The position numbers and the translations under genes are program-made. The notes below the pieces were generated by a model. It was given only the letters and a program-made list of their open reading frames with translations, was not told where the DNA came from and made no database searches. Below, one piece after another: positions 7,709 through 44,457 of a DNA stretch of 45,231 nucleotides. Source of the DNA: Planktomarina sp. (lineage in GTDB: Bacteria > Pseudomonadota > Alphaproteobacteria > Rhodobacterales > Rhodobacteraceae). The stretch lies in contig JAHDCF010000021.1 in NCBI GenBank assembly GCA_020630015.1, positions 1 to 45,231 of the forward strand. The letters are read 5' to 3'. How positions within the stretch are numbered: position 1 is the stretch's first letter; every line of letters starts with the position of its first letter.

Positions 7709-9094
7709 TTAGGCGATAACTTTTGCAAGGTGGGTTCTGACCAATTCGTGGGCGCGCTCTGCGGTGTTTGCTTCGGCGTAACATCTAAATTCTGGTGCAT
7801 TTCCAGAGGGGCGTAAATGCACAACATCCCCAGATGTAAACTGCACGCGAAGACCATCTGTGGTATCAAGGCTGTCTTCTGATCCTAGCCCGTCAAAGAA
7901 GGTGCGGCGATCTTGGGAAGAATGTGTCAGGTTTTGCAAAAGCTGTGCGGTTGCGTCCATATCAACCCCTTGCAGTCGGTCTGCAGCGGCAAACCGTTGG
8001 GGAAGGGTTGTTACAAGGGCTTGCAAGGAGGGTTGGTTTTTGTGGGCGTCGACCAAGGGGGCCACCATGGGCAAGATGCTGTCACGCGTCATGAGGGCGG
8101 GAAGAGGGCCGTTGGGGCCTTGGGCAGTAAACCCAACGAGGAACCCGCCATTGGCTTCATAACCTGCGATGGGGGTGATTGGATTTTGTGCAATGGCTTG
8201 TTCCATTGCTGCAATCACAAAAGGGGATCCAATTTTAGTTCGATGAACCGTCGATATCCAATCCACATGATCCACCAATGTGTTTGAAGACACGGGTGTG
8301 GCCACATGATGTGCACCAATCACCCGCGCAGTCAGAGGCCCTAAAACATCACCTGGTACAATTTGACCTGTTGCATCTGCCACCATTGGCCTATCCCCAT
8401 CCCCATCTGTGGATACAATGGCGTCCAAGTTATGCGCGCTCGCCCAGTTGGCTAATTGTTGGCGTGTCTGTGGGTCGACAGCCTCTGTATCAACGGGGAT
8501 AAATATATCAGAGCGGGCCAACGCCACGGTTTTGGCGCCTAATCCAGAAAGAACATCCCCCATAATATCACGGGCAACAGAACTGTGTTCATAGATCCCT
8601 ACGGTCATCCCCCTAAGGGCATTGGGACCAAAGGCTTTTATATACCGCTGAACAAAGCTTTCCGTGGCTGTGGTATCTTGCGTTGTTGTTCCTGTGCAAA
8701 CAGATTGGATAGGTCTGCCAAGGGCCGCTGTGATGGCCTGTTCATGGGGTTTGGAAATTTCACCCTGTGGGACATAAAACTTTAGCCCATTGCGATCGGC
8801 AGGGATATGGCTGCCGGTTATCATGACAGCGCTTGCCTGTGCATTTTGGGCCGCCATGGCCAAGGCGGGGGTGGGCAGGGCACCGCAGCAGACCACGTTC
8901 TTGCCGCAGTGGGTTAAAGCTGTGATGACATCCTCTGCAATTGTTGGGGACGAGGGTCGCAAATCCCATCCAACGTACACGGTATCCCCAATGTCGCAGG
9001 CCGTGGCGAAGGCCTGAATATAATCTTTTATCAGATCAGAGGTCAGATCGCTGACCAATCCACGCAATCCAGATGTCCCAAATTTTGGTGGCAT
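7709..9094 (-). CDS. manB: Phosphomannomutase/phosphoglucomutase
   Basis: This enzyme interconverts mannose-6-P and mannose-1-P (some relatives also act on glucose). The 461 residues cover the four alpha-D-phosphohexomutase domains. The N-terminal KFGTSGLRG is at 4-12, the phosphoserine loop TGSHIPADRNG at 93-103 (Ser95) and the metal loop DGDGDRP at 230-236. The C-terminal phosphate-binding loop RPSGNAPEFR is near 430. The usual loop text is TASHNP; here it is TGSHIP, seen in several alphaproteobacterial and Wcx-type mutases. It supplies substrate for manC (10559-11971), hence for gmd and fcl. It probably shares a transcript with the downstream glycosyltransferase (22-base gap). The start ATG at 9094 sits directly before the conserved N-terminus. 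Confidence 0.9.
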   Translation of the reverse strand: MPPKFGTSGLRGLVSDLTSDLIKDYIQAFATACDIGDTVYVGWDLRPSSPTIAEDVITALTHCGKNVVCCGALPTPALAMAAQNAQASAVMITGSHIPADRNGLKFYVPQGEISKPHEQAITAALGRPIQSVCTGTTTQDTTATESFVQRYIKAFGPNALRGMTVGIYEHSSVARDIMGDVLSGLGAKTVALARSDIFIPVDTEAVDPQTRQQLANWASAHNLDAIVSTDGDGDRPMVADATGQIVPGDVLGPLTARVIGAHHVATPVSSNTLVDHVDWISTVHRTKIGSPFVIAAMEQAIAQNPITPIAGYEANGGFLVGFTAQGPNGPLPALMTRDSILPMVAPLVDAHKNQPSLQALVTTLPQRFAAADRLQGVDMDATAQLLQNLTHSSQDRRTFFDGLGSEDSLDTTDGLRVQFTSGDVVHLRPSGNAPEFRCYAEANTAERAHELVRTHLAKVIA

Positions 9095-9229
9095 AAAATC
9101 ACCCTATTTTACCGCTGTCTTCATATGCAGGCTTCCACAGGGGGTTGCAACGCACGGTCGTAAAAGATGTTGTTTACGTTTGGTTTCTAACTTTTGGAGG
9201 ATTTTCACAAAACGGGGCTCGGTTTTCAA
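9095..9229. promoter_or_regulatory. Divergent intergenic region, manB versus DUF2793 gene
   Basis: About 135 bases lie between divergent starts. No clear operator or repeat is seen. A GGAGG at 9196-9200 would fit as a ribosome site only for a start near 9208, and no good one exists there. Promoters for both neighbours are expected here but no convincing core element stands out. Confidence 0.35.
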
Positions 9230-10486
9230 ATGTCATCTACCTCATCTGTTTTGGGGCTGCCTTATATTCAGCAAAACCAAGCGCAAAAACATATCACCCA
9301 TAATGAAGCTTTGCGGGTCTTGGATAAGATTACGCAATTGGTTGTGCAGGATCGGTTTGCATCTGCGCCGCCGGCAAACCCTGTTCAGGGGGAAACATAT
9401 ATTGTTGGCCCAACACCCACGGGCGATTGGGTTGGCCATGAGGATGCCATTGCCACATTTGAAGATGCGGCTTGGGTCTTTGTTGTGCCTAAGCCTGGAT
9501 GGCGGGCGCATGTTTTGGCGCATAACGCCCAAGTTGTTTTTGAAGATGGGGCCGGGTGGCAAACCCCTGATTTGGGACAGTTTGATAAGGTTGGGGTGAA
9601 TACGTCGGCCGATACCACAAATAGACTGGCCGTGGCGTCAGACGCCAGTTTGTTCACCCATGTGGGCGAAGACCATCAATTGAAGGTTAATAAAGCCGCT
9701 TCCGCAGATACAGCCAGTTTGATGTTTCAAACGGGGTTTTCGGGCCGTGCGGAAATGGGCACAATCGGGTCGGATGATTTTGGGATAAAGGTCAGCGCAG
9801 ATGGGGCTGATTGGGCTTCTGTTTTGCAAGCGAATGCAACCACCGGCCATGTAACTTTTCCATCTGATGTGACACTTGATGGGGCTGTTGCGGGGCAATC
9901 CGTGCAAAATGGCTTTCATGATACGACTGTGGGAAAGCTTCTTAAGGTTGGGGCTTTTGGTTGGGGGGTGCTTAACAATAATTTACCGACGACACCTTTG
10001 AACCAAGCATTGTCATCCGGTGTTCATAAATTTTCGGCGGTAGATTCTGATAAACCGATAGCATCGGGAGGCGCAGTTCTTGTTATTCGATATGCGCATC
10101 TTTGGGTGAATCAAATTGCCTTTGCCCCCACAGCAAATGAAATGTGGTTACGGTATACAAAGAACAATGGTGCCGTTTGGAGCGATTGGGTCCCATTAAC
10201 ACCTTTTGGTCGTACAAATGCGAATGGACGCTATACCCGTTTCACGGATGGTTCCATGACCTGTCAAACGCAAAGACAATCTTCAAACGCGGGGCCTGCA
10301 ACATGGGTGTTCCCATCAGGTTTTGGATCCACCAATACATCGGTTCATGTGAGCGCCGTCCACAGCGCCCCTGCCATCGCCGTTGTTGATACCATTGGTC
10401 TGACATCTTGCGATTTTTCTGTCTATGATTTGAACGGAGCGCGGATCACTGCGGATGTTACAATCACTGCAACAGGGGAATGGTGA
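9230..10486 (+). CDS. DUF2793 protein with pyocin-knob-like C-terminus
   Basis: The predicted 418 residues open with GLPYIQQNQAQKHITHNEAL. This is the hallmark of DUF2793, a module common in Rhodobacterales phage- and GTA-related or surface proteins. The DUF2793 part, about residues 5-115, is rich in Trp and Gly (GDWVGHEDAIATFEDAAW, PKPGWRA). The C-terminal half resembles phage tail-fibre and pyocin tips. In particular, NEMWLRYTKNNGAVWSDWVPL at about 305-325 fits the pyocin-knob pattern. An upstream TTG start at 9194 is possible, but ATG 9230 puts the start 9 codons before the conserved motif. There is no signal peptide, so how it reaches its target is unclear. The gene stands alone between manB and manC on the opposite strand. 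Function unknown; glycan binding is inference. Confidence 0.8.
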   Translation: MSSTSSVLGLPYIQQNQAQKHITHNEALRVLDKITQLVVQDRFASAPPANPVQGETYIVGPTPTGDWVGHEDAIATFEDAAWVFVVPKPGWRAHVLAHNAQVVFEDGAGWQTPDLGQFDKVGVNTSADTTNRLAVASDASLFTHVGEDHQLKVNKAASADTASLMFQTGFSGRAEMGTIGSDDFGIKVSADGADWASVLQANATTGHVTFPSDVTLDGAVAGQSVQNGFHDTTVGKLLKVGAFGWGVLNNNLPTTPLNQALSSGVHKFSAVDSDKPIASGGAVLVIRYAHLWVNQIAFAPTANEMWLRYTKNNGAVWSDWVPLTPFGRTNANGRYTRFTDGSMTCQTQRQSSNAGPATWVFPSGFGSTNTSVHVSAVHSAPAIAVVDTIGLTSCDFSVYDLNGARITADVTITATGEW

Positions 10487-39152: not shown

Positions 39153-39686
39153 TCAATCGATTTTCAAAGCCCGATCCAAAGACAACATACCCGCCCCTTT
39201 GACCACAAGCACCAGTAAGACAAACACCCAGAACGCCCGTTGATCCACGATCAAGGCGGATGGGTTTCCATCAAACCAGGTGCCGATATCTTTGCCACCC
39301 AATCCATGGCCAGTGATGTCAACAATGGATTGCACCGCCACAAAACCAATCATGCCAAGGGCCGCCAGACGGGTGAAAAGGCCCAGCACAATCAGCACTG
39401 GCAAGATGAATTCAGCCCAAGTGCCCGCCAAGGCCACGACCCAATGGAACACACCCAATTGAGAGCTGTCATATCCTGCGGCTTCCATCGCTTTGGGAAA
39501 AATTTGGATATAGGCGCCATCTGAGGGTCGGAAGAGGCCCAACACCCCATCGCCCAGTTTGGTCATTCCCGATTTCAGATAATAGACCAGCAACGTACCA
39601 GCAAAAATCAAACGTGCCAGAAGGGGCAGGTGGGGCCCCGCGACATCTGTTACGGCATCAGCAAAGCGGGAATAGATCTGGATCAT
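39153..39686 (-). CDS. DoxX-family membrane protein of the bufferin operon
   Basis: About 177 residues with four hydrophobic helices and the DoxX pattern. It shows LLARLIFAGTLLVYYLKSGMTKLGD near the start, then a HWVVALAGTWAEFILPVLIVLGLFTR segment in the middle. DoxX proteins are the usual last gene of DUF2282-DUF692-DUF2063 operons (gigPABT in Cupriavidus, buf operons in Caulobacter), where they are suspected redox or transport partners. ATG 39686 follows an AAGGA site; the frame extends six codons further to 39704. It lies 19 bases after the DUF2063 gene. The precise role is unknown. Confidence 0.88.
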   Translation of the reverse strand: MIQIYSRFADAVTDVAGPHLPLLARLIFAGTLLVYYLKSGMTKLGDGVLGLFRPSDGAYIQIFPKAMEAAGYDSSQLGVFHWVVALAGTWAEFILPVLIVLGLFTRLAALGMIGFVAVQSIVDITGHGLGGKDIGTWFDGNPSALIVDQRAFWVFVLLVLVVKGAGMLSLDRALKID

Positions 39687-39705
39687 GGGAGAGGGGTCCT
39701 TCAAA

Positions 39706-40434
39706 CTAGGGGATCAGCACCTGCCGGGTCACCAAAAGGCTTAGGCAGGTGGGAAAATCAAATCCTTCTGGGGCGGCTTCAAGGGCCTGCCCCAACGGGG
39801 TTGCGCCATCTAAGGCGTCCAAAACATCTGCGGCCCCTGCGGGCAACACATCCACAAAGGGATCAAACTCAGGGCGGCTGATCAATACATCCTCTGGCCC
39901 GGTCAAGGGGGCGGGATCCGCGTTGGGTTGGTTGTTTTGCCACAAAGTTCCAACCGGGAAAGAAGATCGGATGACCGTTACTGAGGGGGCCAAGGTAAAA
40001 GGCATTGTGGCAAAAAGATCAGGATCAAGGCCTGCCAGATCATCCCCTGTCATGCCAGTTGCATCCGCCGCGTGATAGGCCCGGCGCAACGCATTTTCCA
40101 CCCGCGCCACATCCGCCAGATACGGCAGATGGGCCACAGGGGGGAAACTGTCCAAAAAGGTGGGCATGTCTTGACCAAACGCGGCCATCAATGGGGATTG
40201 CGGCGGATATCGGCGCAAGGCCACACCCGCCATGGCGCGAAAGAAATCTTCCCCCACCAAGCGACGGATCACAGGGAAGGCCACCTCAAGCGCATCGCTC
40301 AGCGAAACCGCCACATTATTGCGGTAGACATCAAATCGTTTGCCGGCAGGCCGGCCCTGTCCGTCGCTTAATCTTGGGGGGGTGGGATGATCGGCATCCA
40401 ACAGGGCCGCGCCAAAATCTTGGTGGTTTGTCAT
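39706..40434 (-). CDS. bufC: DUF2063 protein, BufC-like partner of the MNIO enzyme
   Basis: The ~242-residue protein has the DUF2063 N-terminal helical domain: KRFDVYRNNVAVSLSDALEV, then FPVIRRLVGEDFFRAMAG, then YLADVARVENALRRAYHAAD. In bufferin and other MNIO systems this protein binds the precursor peptide and presents it to the DUF692 enzyme. The open frame runs to 40491, but ATG 40434 overlaps the DUF692 stop by 4 bases (40431-40434) and is chosen. The coupling implies equal amounts of the two partners. It acts in the cytoplasm. Confidence 0.9.
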   Translation of the reverse strand: MTNHQDFGAALLDADHPTPPRLSDGQGRPAGKRFDVYRNNVAVSLSDALEVAFPVIRRLVGEDFFRAMAGVALRRYPPQSPLMAAFGQDMPTFLDSFPPVAHLPYLADVARVENALRRAYHAADATGMTGDDLAGLDPDLFATMPFTLAPSVTVIRSSFPVGTLWQNNQPNADPAPLTGPEDVLISRPEFDPFVDVLPAGAADVLDALDGATPLGQALEAAPEGFDFPTCLSLLVTRQVLIP

Positions 40435-41279
40435 GACGCGGGTGTCAGCGCAGCTGCCGCCCGGTCTGCCTCGGCCCGTAAGACGTTCCAATCGGGCACA
40501 TCATTGTCCCATTCAATCAAGGTGGGCGTGGGGCCGGTTTTGGCCAAGGTATAGGTATAAAGATCCCACACGGGATCGGCCACTTCACGGCTGTGACTGT
40601 CGATTAACAGGGGGGCGCCGGTATCATCTGTGTCCTCATCATGCCCGCCCAAATGTAATTCGCCGACATATTCTGTGGGATAGGCATCAATATATTCCCG
40701 CGCACCCATCTTAAGATTGGTCGCAGAGACAAAGACGTTATTCACATCAAGCAAAAGGCCACAGCCCGTGCGCGCCACGATGGTGGCCAAAAAATCCACC
40801 TCTGAATAGGTGCTGTCATCAAACCAAAGATAACTGGATGGATTTTCCAAAAGCATTTGACGGCCCAGTGTCTGTTGCACGTCATTGATGTGATCGGCGA
40901 CCCGCGTCAGGGTCGCGTCTGTATAGGGCAGGGGTAGAAGATCATTGAAAAAGATCCCATGGGATGACCAGGCAAGATGTTCAGAAAAACTGGCTGGGTT
41001 CAGCCAATCCATCAAATGCCGCAGTCGTTTCAAATGGTCTGGATCAAGCGGGCCTTCGCCCCCGATCGACAGGCCAACCCCATGGGCGGATATTGCAAAT
41101 TTTTGAGACAACTCTTTCATCTGTGCGATGGGGCGGCCGCCTTGGCCCATATAATTTTCGGCATGAACCTCAAGCCATTGAACAGGGCCTGGGTCGCGAA
41201 TGACATCTTCAAAATGCTGTGGTTTGTAACCAACACCCACTGAGGTGGGCAGCGAATTTGGGGTATAATCAAACATCAT
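40431..41279 (-). CDS. bufB: DUF692 multinuclear non-heme iron oxidase (MNIO), BufB-like
   Basis: The 282-residue TIM-barrel enzyme of the DUF692/MbnB-BufB family is expected to modify cysteines of the adjacent DUF2282 peptide. Metal-ligand regions are all visible: EVHAENYMGQGG, ISAHGVGLSIGGEG, FSEHLAWSS, LLENPSSYLWF, LLLDVNNVFVSATN, GELHLGGHDEDT and LLIDSHSREVADPVWDLY. These provide the His, Glu, Asp and Asn residues that hold the iron cluster. ATG 41279 is one of two tandem ATGs, with AAGG upstream. It follows the precursor gene after 65 bases containing a hairpin. The product chemistry (thiooxazole in known bufferins) is inferred from the family. Confidence 0.93.
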   Translation of the reverse strand: MMFDYTPNSLPTSVGVGYKPQHFEDVIRDPGPVQWLEVHAENYMGQGGRPIAQMKELSQKFAISAHGVGLSIGGEGPLDPDHLKRLRHLMDWLNPASFSEHLAWSSHGIFFNDLLPLPYTDATLTRVADHINDVQQTLGRQMLLENPSSYLWFDDSTYSEVDFLATIVARTGCGLLLDVNNVFVSATNLKMGAREYIDAYPTEYVGELHLGGHDEDTDDTGAPLLIDSHSREVADPVWDLYTYTLAKTGPTPTLIEWDNDVPDWNVLRAEADRAAAALTPAS

Positions 41280-41305
41280 ATCGCCTTGTTATCATGGGAA
41301 GCTGC

Positions 41306-41326
41306 GGGCGACACCCTGTGCCGCCC
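41306..41326 (-). other. Intercistronic hairpin between bufA and bufB
   Basis: On the minus strand GGGCGGCA pairs with TGTCGCCC (one G-U pair) around a 5-base loop. No T-run follows. Stems like this between a precursor gene and its modifying enzyme often stabilise the upstream message or attenuate read-through, giving more peptide than enzyme. That role is inference. Confidence 0.5.
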
Positions 41327-41344
41327 CCATACCATAAGATGGGC

Positions 41345-41650
41345 TTATGCCGGCAGGTCACGCTCCAGCGCTTCCAAAGATCCCATACGCTCTGTGCCAT
41401 CGGCCATTGCTGGAACTTCGATATCGGCGCAGGTGCCAGCGGGCACCAATGTCCACGCGTTGCCTTGGTAATCAACGGTTGATGTACCGGCACAGGTTGT
41501 GCCTGGGCCAGCGGCACAGTCGTTTTTACCTGCCAATGACACGCCATAGCATTTTTCTTTGCCAGCAGCATGGGCCGCAGGGGCAACAGCAGCAGTCATG
41601 GCAGCAGCCATTGCAGAGGCGATAACGATGTTTTTTGCAGTCGTGGACAT
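41345..41650 (-). CDS. bufA: DUF2282 bufferin-type RiPP precursor
   Basis: This 101-residue peptide precursor has a Sec signal peptide ([21 protein letters not shown], cut near 28). Its mature part carries four cysteines at 34, 45, 53 and 74: [17 protein letters not shown], then [10 protein letters not shown] and VPAGTC. This spacing is the DUF2282/BufA1 signature. In described bufferins the two central cysteines (here 45 and 53) become 5-thiooxazoles and the product binds copper in the periplasm. Downstream are the MNIO enzyme, its partner and DoxX. The ATG has an AAAGGA site and a leader sharing 14 bases with that of the MAPEG gene. The acidic C-terminal tail after Cys74 (about 27 residues) is longer than the minimal core. 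Confidence 0.93.
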
Positions 41651-41691: not shown

Positions 41692-41838
41692 CCCAAGGTG
41701 TAGGAAATCAGACGCCGTCCCTTCCACTCACAAGCCCGTGCATCACAGGAGCGTTAGAATGGGGCAGGATTTTTCGGCGAATTTCAGGGGAAATTGTTAG
41801 ATTTCCCGCCTTTTGGGGCCGCGGGTTGGCCCGTTTTG

Positions 41839-43080
41839 TTACAAACCCTTGGTGATTTGAATTTGGGCCAACCTATTTTGTAAGAAAATCCTAGCCGCAT
41901 CATTGGGAGCCATCTCAATGGCGGTGGCATAGGCGCTTGCGGCCTCTGCCCCCCGGTCCAATTTGCGCAAAACATCGGCGCGGGCGGCATGAAAGGGCTG
42001 GAACTGAGACAAGGCCCCCGACAGGGAGTCGATCTTTGTGAGGGCCGTCTCGGTATGGCCCAACTCCGACAGAACCACCGCCCAGTTCAACGCCACCACG
42101 GGCGTCGGCTCAAACGCCCAAAGACTTTGATAGAGAAGAGAGATTTGCGCCCAGTCGGGGCCACCCTCGCCCATATGGCAATCGGCAATGGCGGCTTTGA
42201 TTTGAAAGGGGCCCGGTGCGCGCTGATCCACAGCCCCCATCAAAACCCTTTGCCCCTCTGCGATCAATTCGCCCTGCCACAGGCTGCGGTCTTGATCTTC
42301 AATGGCAACGCTGGCGCCATCTGCCCCGATACGGGCGGGACGGCGTGCATCTGTCAGCAGCATCAGGGCCAAAGCCCCTTGGATTTCAGGGTCGCCTGCG
42401 CGCAGTCGGTCCAAAAGGCGTACCAAAAACAGGCCTTCGGCACATAAATCCCGTTCGCCCACCTCTTGCGTGACATATCCCGTGGTGAAAATCAGATAGA
42501 GGGTGGCCAGAACCGTCTCCAACCGCTCTGCCCAATCTTCCGGATCTGGCACCTTAAAGCCAATGCCCGCTGATTTGATCTTGGCTTTGGACCGCGACAA
42601 CCGCTGACCCATGGTGGCTTCTGTGTCCAAGAATGCATTGGCAATTTCAGATGTGGTCAGCTGACACACAGTGCGCAAAGTCAGGGCGATGCGGGACTTT
42701 TCTTCCAAAGCAGGGTGACAGCAGGTGAAGATCAAACGCAAACGTTCGTCGGGGATATCTTCCGCGGTGTCGATTGCATCATGTTCGGCCATGAGATGGG
42801 ATACCTCTTGTGCTTTGTGATCCTCCCTTTGGGATTGTCTGATCCGATCAATGCCTTTGTTTAAGGCCACTTTCATCAACCACCCAATGGGAGAGGCGGG
42901 AATGCCAGACCGCCCCCAATGTTTGAGGGCGGCGATAGAAGCCTCTTGCAGGGCGTCTTCTGCACGCCCAAAATCCCCAAGACGGGAAATCAATCCCGCC
43001 ATCAGCCGCCCCCGATCGTCGCGCAACACCTGTGTTAAGGCGTTTTGTACGGCGATGGCTTTGGAGGCGGCTGAGGTCAT
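41839..43080 (-). CDS. ECF42-type RNA polymerase sigma factor with C-terminal TPR-like domain
   Basis: The 413-residue protein is far longer than a simple ECF sigma factor. Sigma-2 is at about 20-85 (FGRAEDALQEASIAALKHW and GWLMKVALNKGIDRIRQSQ), and sigma-4 at about 110-165 (RLRLIFTCCHPALEEKSRIALTLR, then TTSEIANAFLDTEATMGQRLSRSK). A DUF6596/TPR-like helical tail covers 190-413. This architecture and the adjacent DGPF protein define group ECF42, which has no anti-sigma factor and is thought to be controlled through its C-terminal extension. The start lies 4 bases after the DGPF gene stop. It likely drives its own operon through the promoter at 43915-43941. Whether it also controls the bufferin operon downstream is open. 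Confidence 0.93.
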   Translation of the reverse strand: MTSAASKAIAVQNALTQVLRDDRGRLMAGLISRLGDFGRAEDALQEASIAALKHWGRSGIPASPIGWLMKVALNKGIDRIRQSQREDHKAQEVSHLMAEHDAIDTAEDIPDERLRLIFTCCHPALEEKSRIALTLRTVCQLTTSEIANAFLDTEATMGQRLSRSKAKIKSAGIGFKVPDPEDWAERLETVLATLYLIFTTGYVTQEVGERDLCAEGLFLVRLLDRLRAGDPEIQGALALMLLTDARRPARIGADGASVAIEDQDRSLWQGELIAEGQRVLMGAVDQRAPGPFQIKAAIADCHMGEGGPDWAQISLLYQSLWAFEPTPVVALNWAVVLSELGHTETALTKIDSLSGALSQFQPFHAARADVLRKLDRGAEAASAYATAIEMAPNDAARIFLQNRLAQIQITKGL

Positions 43081-43084
43081 GGGT

Positions 43085-43444
43085 TTAACCTGCGGGATTA
43101 TAATCCATCAAAGGGCGAACCTCGATGGTGCCAAATGCGGCAGATGGGATCAAAGCGGCATATTTCAGGGCGGCATCCAGATCGGGCACATCCACCACAT
43201 AGTAACCGCCCAAGTATTCGCGGGTTTCGGCAAAGGGGCCATCCATGGTTTCCACCTTGCCCGATTTGATGCGCAGGGATGTGGCCGTGTCTGTGCCTTT
43301 TAGGCCTTCACCGCTGACCATGGCGCCATCGGCTTTGATCTTCTCGTTGACGTCAAAATAGCCCTTCATCAGATCTTCGAATTCTGGGGTGCCATATTTT
43401 GGTTCACGGGCAGGGTCGCTGTAAATGAGAAGCATATATTGCAT
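43085..43444 (-). CDS. DGPF/YCII-domain protein, ECF42 partner
   Basis: About 119 residues: MQYMLLIYSDPA start, then KVETMDGPFAETREYLGGYYVV with the DGPF motif near 79-82. The C-terminal part reads IEVRPLMDYNPA. These YCII-fold proteins are the standard neighbours and targets of ECF42 sigma factors; their biochemical function is unknown. The frame is open to 43501, but ATG 43444 has an AAGGAC site and starts at the conserved N-terminus. It is in one operon with the MAPEG gene (43-base gap) and the sigma gene (4-base gap). Confidence 0.92.
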   Translation of the reverse strand: MQYMLLIYSDPAREPKYGTPEFEDLMKGYFDVNEKIKADGAMVSGEGLKGTDTATSLRIKSGKVETMDGPFAETREYLGGYYVVDVPDLDAALKYAALIPSAAFGTIEVRPLMDYNPAG

Positions 43445-43487
43445 GGGTTTTGTCCTTATATTGAGAGAGTAGGGAAGAGAGGGGCCT

Positions 43488-43877
43488 TTACAGCCCCACA
43501 ATGTTCACAGCCAAGCAGATCATGATGTTCAAAGCTGCCAAGATGTTGGTGCCGTTGCCGACATACCGCAGGGGATGTCCTGCATTGTCGATTTTCAGAC
43601 CAAAGGGATGGGCCACACGGCCAATCACCAACAAAACGCCAGAGATATGAATATAAAGGCCAGGGGCTCCCATGCCTTCGGCCAAGATCATCATGATCAA
43701 CAGAAAGGATGACCATTCCCAAAAATTGCCATGTTGGCGGATACGCTGCAACAACACCGGATCGCCATTGTCACCAATCGAAATGCCATTGGCGCCACGA
43801 TAAGATGTTACCCGGAACCACAGCACAAGATAGATTGCTGCGATGGCAAGGGCGTATATTGGGGTTACCGTAAACAT
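43488..43877 (-). CDS. MAPEG-family membrane protein
   Basis: The 129-residue protein has four hydrophobic helices and the MAPEG pattern. It includes NGISIGDNGDPVLLQRIRQHGNFWEWSSF (about 35-63; the Arg-x-x-x-HgNf core binds glutathione in relatives), then a late HPFGL. Bacterial MAPEG proteins are glutathione-dependent detoxification or peroxidase-like enzymes of the inner membrane. It heads the operon MAPEG-DGPF-sigma and directly follows the ECF42-type promoter, which suggests a link with oxidative or electrophile stress. ATG 43877 has an AAGGAA site. Confidence 0.88.
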   Translation of the reverse strand: MFTVTPIYALAIAAIYLVLWFRVTSYRGANGISIGDNGDPVLLQRIRQHGNFWEWSSFLLIMMILAEGMGAPGLYIHISGVLLVIGRVAHPFGLKIDNAGHPLRYVGNGTNILAALNIMICLAVNIVGL

Positions 43878-43914: not shown

Positions 43915-43941
43915 GACGTCTGCCGATGTGAAATTTCGACA
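43915..43941 (-). promoter_or_regulatory. Predicted ECF42 promoter
   Basis: On the minus strand TGTCGA (43941-43936) is followed after exactly 17 bases by CGTC (43918-43915), 37 bases upstream of the MAPEG ATG. The described ECF42 consensus has TGTCGA at -35 and CG(A/T)C at -10 with similar spacing. The match places this sigma factor's own operon under its control. Confidence 0.75.
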
Positions 43942-44031: not shown

Positions 44032-44457
44032 TTGGATGAAATACAGTTCGTCAATCTGATTGATTGCAATTTCCCATACAATGACCGGAAAACCGCAGTT
44101 GGACTAATTGATCAGGCAAATGAAATTTCTGAAAATGCGATGTTTGCAGTTCTCGATGAACTCTGTCGATGTCCACATGGGACGGAGGTATCGCGTAACA
44201 CTCTCTTGGAGCTGGTCGATATCTGGGCGGACCGAATTAAGCACCCTTTAGGATCAGATTTTGTTTTTGTCGCAAAGCTAATGATAGAAAATAACCTTTG
44301 GTCGGTCGAAGATGGGCTATCTTTGCTAGACAAAGTAACCCCATTTAAAGGTCTATATGCCGCGCTCAGCATCGTTTTGGAGTCAGCAGAAGATATAGAA
44401 AATGCACTCGAGGTCCGGGCAGAAAAGATACGTTCTGATTGGGATGTAGGTTTATAA
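44032..44457 (+). CDS. Hypothetical all-helical protein
   Basis: I do not recognise this 141-residue protein. It is acidic and predicted nearly all helical (TAVGLIDQANEISENAMFAVLDELCRC, LLELVDIWADRI and similar), in the style of small HEAT-like or immunity proteins. There is no signal peptide or membrane segment. The start is a TTG at 44032. It is supported by an almost perfect Shine-Dalgarno AAGGAGGTG (44019-44027) at correct distance; the nearby ATG at 44036 is out of frame and runs into a stop. It stands alone between the stress operon and rfbC and is AT-richer than its neighbours. An immunity or adaptor role would be speculation. Confidence 0.72.
   Translation: MDEIQFVNLIDCNFPYNDRKTAVGLIDQANEISENAMFAVLDELCRCPHGTEVSRNTLLELVDIWADRIKHPLGSDFVFVAKLMIENNLWSVEDGLSLLDKVTPFKGLYAALSIVLESAEDIENALEVRAEKIRSDWDVGL

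Follow-up and report, generated by a model that had tools for sequence, protein, structure and literature searches.

In Caulobacter, the operon CC3254-CC3257 described in PMC3511200 resembles the locus studied here in its gene order and in its four families, a DUF2282 precursor, a DUF692/MNIO enzyme, a DUF2063 protein and a DoxX protein. The same source gives the Caulobacter SigF promoter as GTAACC-N16-CGAA. As outlined in PMC12452194, gold-induced (gig) operons are bufferin clusters, Buf1 peptides carry their modification on the middle cysteines and a disulphide between the outer ones, and Caulobacter Buf1 chelates copper. More distant are the captophorins/oxazolin (Hvf, Fon), which share with our locus the MNIO enzyme, a DUF2063-type partner and the iron site-3 ligands, whereas their precursors are of the EGKCG type and belong to a family other than DUF2282. 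According to PMC13419390, HvfB needs N175, D242 and H244, which are these iron site-3 ligands. Compared with CC3254-CC3257, the Planktomarina locus differs in three respects: its genome lacks NrsF, it carries a tandem DNA element instead, and its precursor has an RDLP-ending tail. Judged by its sequence, the operon is an ordinary member of the copper-buffering peptide type of marine Rhodobacteraceae and the DNA element upstream of it is the new part.

The window, meaning the whole stretch of DNA analysed (45,231 nucleotides), is the entire contig C22 of a Planktomarina sp. draft genome (2.88 Mb, 70 contigs). It contains the following operon.

39153-39704, minus strand: bufD, DoxX family membrane protein (PF07681, 31.1 bits versus a cut-off of 23.6)
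39706-40434, minus strand: bufC, DUF2063 partner protein (PF09836, 80.2 bits versus a cut-off of 27.2)
40431-41279, minus strand: bufB, MNIO maturase (MbnB_TglH_ChrH, 339 bits versus a cut-off of 25)
41345-41650, minus strand: bufA, bufferin precursor of 101 aa (DUF2282, Pfam 89.2 bits versus a cut-off of 22.4)

An earlier note on this DNA had proposed a buf operon of the order DUF2282-MNIO-DUF2063-DoxX, and all four genes were found where it had placed them, on the minus strand and above the family cut-offs. BufB also exceeded the equivalog cut-off of NCBIfam NF050167 (MNIO_BufB; 363.5 versus 310 bits), and the HvfB, HvfC and HvfX models matched the window proteins below their cut-offs. A family search of the Planktomarina genome returned one DUF2282 and one MNIO match. 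BufC (DUF2063, PME type 1), above the Pfam cut-off, is the Buf1 partner type; it gave no convincing match against the PDB sequences. The stop of bufB and the bufC ATG (40434) overlap, and the longest bufC frame begins with a TTG at 40491; bufD starts with the TTG at 39704 or with an ATG further in. The DoxX gene, present in the window cluster, is frequent in Buf1 and not required. Residues N180/N181, D227 and H229 of BufB correspond by position to N175, D242 and H244 of HvfB, via 3bww and assuming a one-residue offset, and are invariant in the sequences of eight out of eight aligned BufB proteins. For comparison, a scan of genome contigs pointed to 583 related places, of which the best 80 make up the named loci; their records belong to Rhodobacterales, with the exception of a few bins lacking classification and a single record with Maritalea in its title. 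The order bufA-bufB-bufC-bufD on a single strand was identical in 80 out of 80 named loci (best 80 of 583) and is therefore far from chance; the reversed starts listed for L082 result from an overlap between two of its called frames. The families, the gene order, the conserved iron ligands and the presence of four cysteines support a bufferin operon, and the locus is, as predicted from these features, a complete, standard Buf1 bufferin cluster. Variant arrangements were also observed among the relatives. In six loci (L036, L102, L105, L123, L052 and L189) one bufB is preceded by two bufA, L128 has two bufD-like frames, and a possible BufB-BufC fusion is seen in L046, where a frame of 568 aa (8499-10205) resembles BufB, runs on the strand opposite to bufA and is accompanied by no separate bufC match.

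The cysteines of BufA lie at positions 34, 45, 53 and 74, as the earlier note had read them, and their spacing of 11, 8 and 21 is common to the 80 named loci (best 80 of 583) and most relatives. By eye, the N-terminus shows a basic start, a hydrophobic stretch and AHA ahead of the mature part, which makes a Sec signal peptide likely. BufA would be synthesised with this signal peptide, the BufB-BufC pair would most likely convert the middle Cys45 and Cys53 to thiooxazoles, a Cys34-Cys74 disulphide would be formed after export and the mature peptide would sequester copper in the periplasm. We infer these steps, including the thiooxazoles and the copper binding of the window BufA, by analogy with the family. 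The loss of 4 Da per cysteine ring expected in the earlier note is in line with what PMC13097082 presents. The end of the precursor constitutes a further feature.

41345-41428 (stop codon included), minus strand: 27-residue acidic C-terminal tail of BufA, containing RDLP and typical of the clade

Counted by eye, seven of the 27 residues after the last cysteine are acidic and two are basic. This tail had been regarded as a peculiarity of the window copy, a view that did not hold, because exactly 27 residues is the modal length among the precursors of the named loci (47 out of 83; best 80 of 583). The motifs R[DN][LIV]P and G[SAT]L were present in 80 and 76 of these 83 precursors, respectively (best 80 of 583 loci), and G90, R97 and D98 were invariant in 58 out of 58 aligned BufA sequences (the window plus 57 of 79 usable references). 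Among further relatives, R[DN][LIV]P was found in 15 out of 16 precursors within the same family and in one out of ten outside it. Among the plasmid copies read, the motif was carried by two Rhodobacterales precursors and missing from five others, four of them belonging to Shinella, Rhizobium and Roseateles and the fifth to E. coli. With 600 random pairs and no correction, pN/pS amounted to 0.11 in the core and 0.46 in the signal peptide; the tail gave 0.42 overall and 0.34 over its final 14 residues. Conservation and pN/pS values together mark the tail as a moderately constrained feature of the clade. The three invariant residues and the values of 0.42 and 0.34 would also be compatible with an acidic tail that gives the window peptide a different function; nevertheless, the tail is the norm of the clade rather than special to the window copy, the window BufA core closely matches that of the relatives, and we consider such a function very unlikely. 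Longer tails of 41-53 residues, with RDLP inside and an extension beyond it, were observed in the bufA of L040, L084, L098, L108 and L114.

Next to bufA and on the same strand, the window carries a module of the kind known from ECF42 modules with YCII-domain genes.

41839-43080, minus strand: ECF42-type sigma factor (sigma-70 regions 2 and 4, DUF6596; family match)
43085-43501, minus strand: YCII-domain protein of the ECF42 module (family match)
43488-43877, minus strand: MAPEG protein of the ECF42 module (family match)
43915-43941, minus strand: ECF42-type promoter-like site before MAPEG-YCII-ECF42, with the ECF42-type promoter motif TGTCGA...CGTC

The earlier note had linked the operon to ECF42 control, which would mean that the neighbouring sigma factor drives buf and that the window copy answers another stress. 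The position of the genes is consistent with this proposal: the ECF42 gene ends 188 bp from bufA on the same strand and a simple scan of that strand showed nothing terminator-like in the interval; read-through would be possible. However, the pairing was not found elsewhere. Nine of the 61 genomes carry both DUF2282 and DUF6596 and only the window genome has them adjacent; separate contigs or a distance of at least 23 kb were seen in the remaining eight, a hidden neighbour being conceivable in G037 because its buf genes are about 2.5 kb from a contig end. Likewise, none of the 80 named loci (best 80 of 583) had ECF42, YCII or MAPEG in flanks of up to 5 kb, some of them shorter. The ECF42-type site is located 64 bp before MAPEG, and the window scan with this type of motif revealed none before bufA; the motif matched four times in the window, when 1.14 matches were expected by chance and four out of 100 shuffles had as many. 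The module also recurs away from buf. Among five further ECF42 places, G013, G019, G011 and G025 presented MAPEG-YCII-ECF42 in the same order (in G011 with ECF42 cut by the contig end) and TGTCGAAA...CGTC starting 67-72 bp before MAPEG, and the fifth, G034, lacked MAPEG and combined YCII with a distant ECF42 of 34% identity. Given that adjacency failed in all eight other genomes, that the module has a separate site and that bufA has a conserved element of its own, the claim of ECF42 control was abandoned, and the scenario of a neighbouring sigma factor driving buf is highly improbable. MAPEG-YCII-ECF42 appears as an independent unit, also independent of buf in the relatives, and ECF42 is probably not the buf regulator.

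Short-word counts upstream of bufA exposed the consensus ACR-N4-YGTG-N4-ACR-N4-YGTGA, mostly with TG, TC or TA before it and NT after it.

41723-41758, minus strand: tandem element upstream of bufA, core 41728-41754 ACGCTCCTGTGATGCACGGGCTTGTGA (supported by its held-out score)

The element was scored with a weight matrix in held-out mode: the site under test, along with its near copies, was excluded from the training. The window element reached 37.4 bits; across the 9.2 kb covered by the scan, the runner-up scored 0.2 bits. When both strands were considered, the best site of the locus preceded bufA in 71 out of 80 cases (best 80 of 583). The nine misses comprised the SigF/NrsF loci L056, L062 and L080, together with L102, L103, L113, L116 and L117, which by eye were apparent spacing variants, and L087, which had no clear assignment. 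The strict element was found in 59 out of 81 upstream regions (best 80 of 583 loci plus the window), the 81 including L095, which has no upstream sequence to search, and a looser hand-made pattern in 63 out of 81, versus a mean of 0.05 in mononucleotide shuffles. Among 15 same-family relatives with DUF2282, five had the strict element (G021, G022, G024, G028 and G030). By eye, three others presented a near form (G011, G026 and G032) and two a degenerate one (G034 and G036), no element was seen in G027 and G033, and the three remaining relatives had SigF. The near-form site of G011 was missed by the pattern search even when two mismatches were allowed.

At the genome scale, a search of 20 genus genomes with up to two mismatches returned two sites, that of the window and one in G004. 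The strict pattern occurred in 12 of the 61 genomes, and was at buf only in G000, G021, G022, G024, G028 and G030; the other six had eight strict matches away from buf, versus four in the backward control. Regarding the genomes of 34 chosen named loci, 27 had a strict match. By coordinates, it fell at buf in 25, 18 of which had no other match, and ten places in nine genomes were away from buf, versus two in the backward control. Thirteen of the 18 places away from buf were examined, and most of these matches are probably coding chance because 11 lay in open frames of at least 278 codons (the other two in frames of 135 and 138); further targets may exist. Among the titles and openings of abstracts listed in the literature searches, none described the tandem element. 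Its conservation in most compared copies makes the question of what bacteria sense when making bufferin directly testable, since a DNA bait for the regulator is now defined.

Within the 61 genomes (own and relatives), DUF2282 was present in 25, and in the genus it was restricted to two out of 20, the window genome and G011, several of the others being incomplete. According to tblastn, thrS was located upstream on the same strand in 78 out of 80 named loci (best 80 of 583; not in L062, and L095 is cut), with 22 to 3,023 bp separating it from the bufA frame as called, and in eight out of 24 fetched regions of relatives. In the window thrS gave no tblastn match, which indicates that the operon sits at another place and has retained the element. 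On the tree, the window operon pairs with G022 (SH-aLRT 88), and G011, from the same genus, falls elsewhere; its position may reflect transfer or differential loss.

A second conserved feature follows the element.

41697-41702, minus strand: -10-like box TACACC, at the fixed distance of the clade and keeping two of the four conserved TANNTT letters

In 43 non-redundant sequences out of the 59, a TANNTT-like box follows the element, its first letter being the 26th base past the last GTGA and its conserved places being T in 25, A in 31, T in 27 and T in 31 of the 43, with A also common at the first one, and columns 6 to 25 between GTGA and the box did not exceed 0.41 bits. A simple sigma-70 consensus scan flagged no promoter at the window's box, and no recognisable -35 box was found at the right spacing from it. 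With the box taken as the -10, bufA would be transcribed from its own promoter, starting about 40 bp before bufA, and the dyads would be centred near -58 and -43. The conserved spacing suggests that a transcription factor, most likely an activator, would bind the tandem dyads beside a -10-like box that lacks a recognisable -35, and this lack itself suggests that an activator is needed.

Two other interpretations of the element were considered. Spanning about -68 to -33, the two dyads could block RNA polymerase, as would be expected if the element were a repressor site overlapping the promoter; we find this unlikely, as the unrecognisable -35 box points to an activator. The element might also act at the RNA level, as a signal within an extended leader, or belong to the end of thrS, given its dyad symmetry and its position, which in most relatives is between thrS and bufA. 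This option is quite improbable, because the window keeps the element where thrS is absent, the -10-like box follows at a fixed distance and the commonest arms, TGACG and YGTGA, pair incompletely. The interpretation that we regard as probable is that of a complete Buf1 cluster with its own promoter and a predicted activator acting at the tandem element, the ECF42 module being independent.

The earlier note had also suggested that the operon may respond to a different signal, its control not being of the SigF type. In the Buf1 family as a whole, SigF/NrsF control occurs in some members and is not obligatory. NrsF had no match in the Planktomarina genome, so the part of the proposal excluding SigF control stood; as a peculiarity of this copy it did not, most relatives being alike. 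NrsF was linked to buf in five of the 25 genomes with DUF2282 (G025, G029, G035, G040 and G055), and SigF and NrsF lay beside bufA in three out of 80 named loci (L056, L062 and L080; best 80 of 583), all three of them without the tandem element. A SigF-type site, GTAAC-N17-CGAA, was located 77-108 nt before bufA in seven of the eight SigF-linked loci, the pattern being unmatched in G055. In G046, NrsF was on another contig and the SigF-type site 63 nt before bufA. The SigF pattern also occurred in five loci that bear the element, there at a distance of 25 or 226 nt. The two controls were then traced on a tree of BufB+BufC with 105 rows; six rows were scored as SigF and 85 as element, the latter including three relatives whose near form was judged by eye as well as the six odd loci, the non-SigF misses. 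At least four changes between the two controls were required, and also four when the six odd loci were removed; this is a rough figure because many forks are weak, 29 out of 102 being drawn open. The tandem element would replace the SigF/NrsF switch of other alphaproteobacterial copies. We tentatively propose, at somewhat less than even confidence, that the buf operons of marine Rhodobacteraceae are run by a dedicated activator instead of SigF/NrsF, whose full tandem site is confined to buf in most of the genomes that have it, and that at least four such replacements occurred with the same peptide. The signal to which the buf regulator responds may differ from that releasing SigF. These operons constitute a natural series in which the control is swapped and the product unchanged.

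The form of the dyads, compared with the E. coli CusR box, made the CusR/CopR type the first candidate regulator. TIGR01387 (CusR/CopR type) was above its cut-off in none of the 61 genomes. Among the matches listed, the strongest below the cut-off exceeded 220 bits (e.g., in G000 and G022), but G021, G024 and G030, which carry the element, had none above 176 bits. A binder of this type is not supported, as strong sub-threshold matches do not track the element among the matches listed. A buf-adjacent regulator was also searched for by clustering the neighbours of the named loci; within the 24 largest groups, ten of them judged by sequence without a family search, only an ArsR-like gene was noticed by eye. 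It was present in 12 out of 80 named loci (best 80 of 583), mostly three to four genes from buf.

With respect to the surroundings of the window operon, the neighbouring polysaccharide island claimed before was confirmed: a scan of ten proteins gave matches to YjbH, YjbF, Poly_export, Bac_transf and ABC transporter families. On the plus strand, 44032-44457 holds a frame of 141 aa with no Pfam match, between the ECF42 module and an rmlC-like gene. Outside this group of bacteria, the plasmid records matching BufB included 73 from Escherichia, 18 from Klebsiella and eight from Salmonella. In one of the loci, L193, on the E. coli IncF plasmid NZ_CP021938.1, a TetR-type regulator precedes a complete DUF2282-DUF692-DUF2063-DoxX set, and this TetR-linked set may represent a third kind of control.
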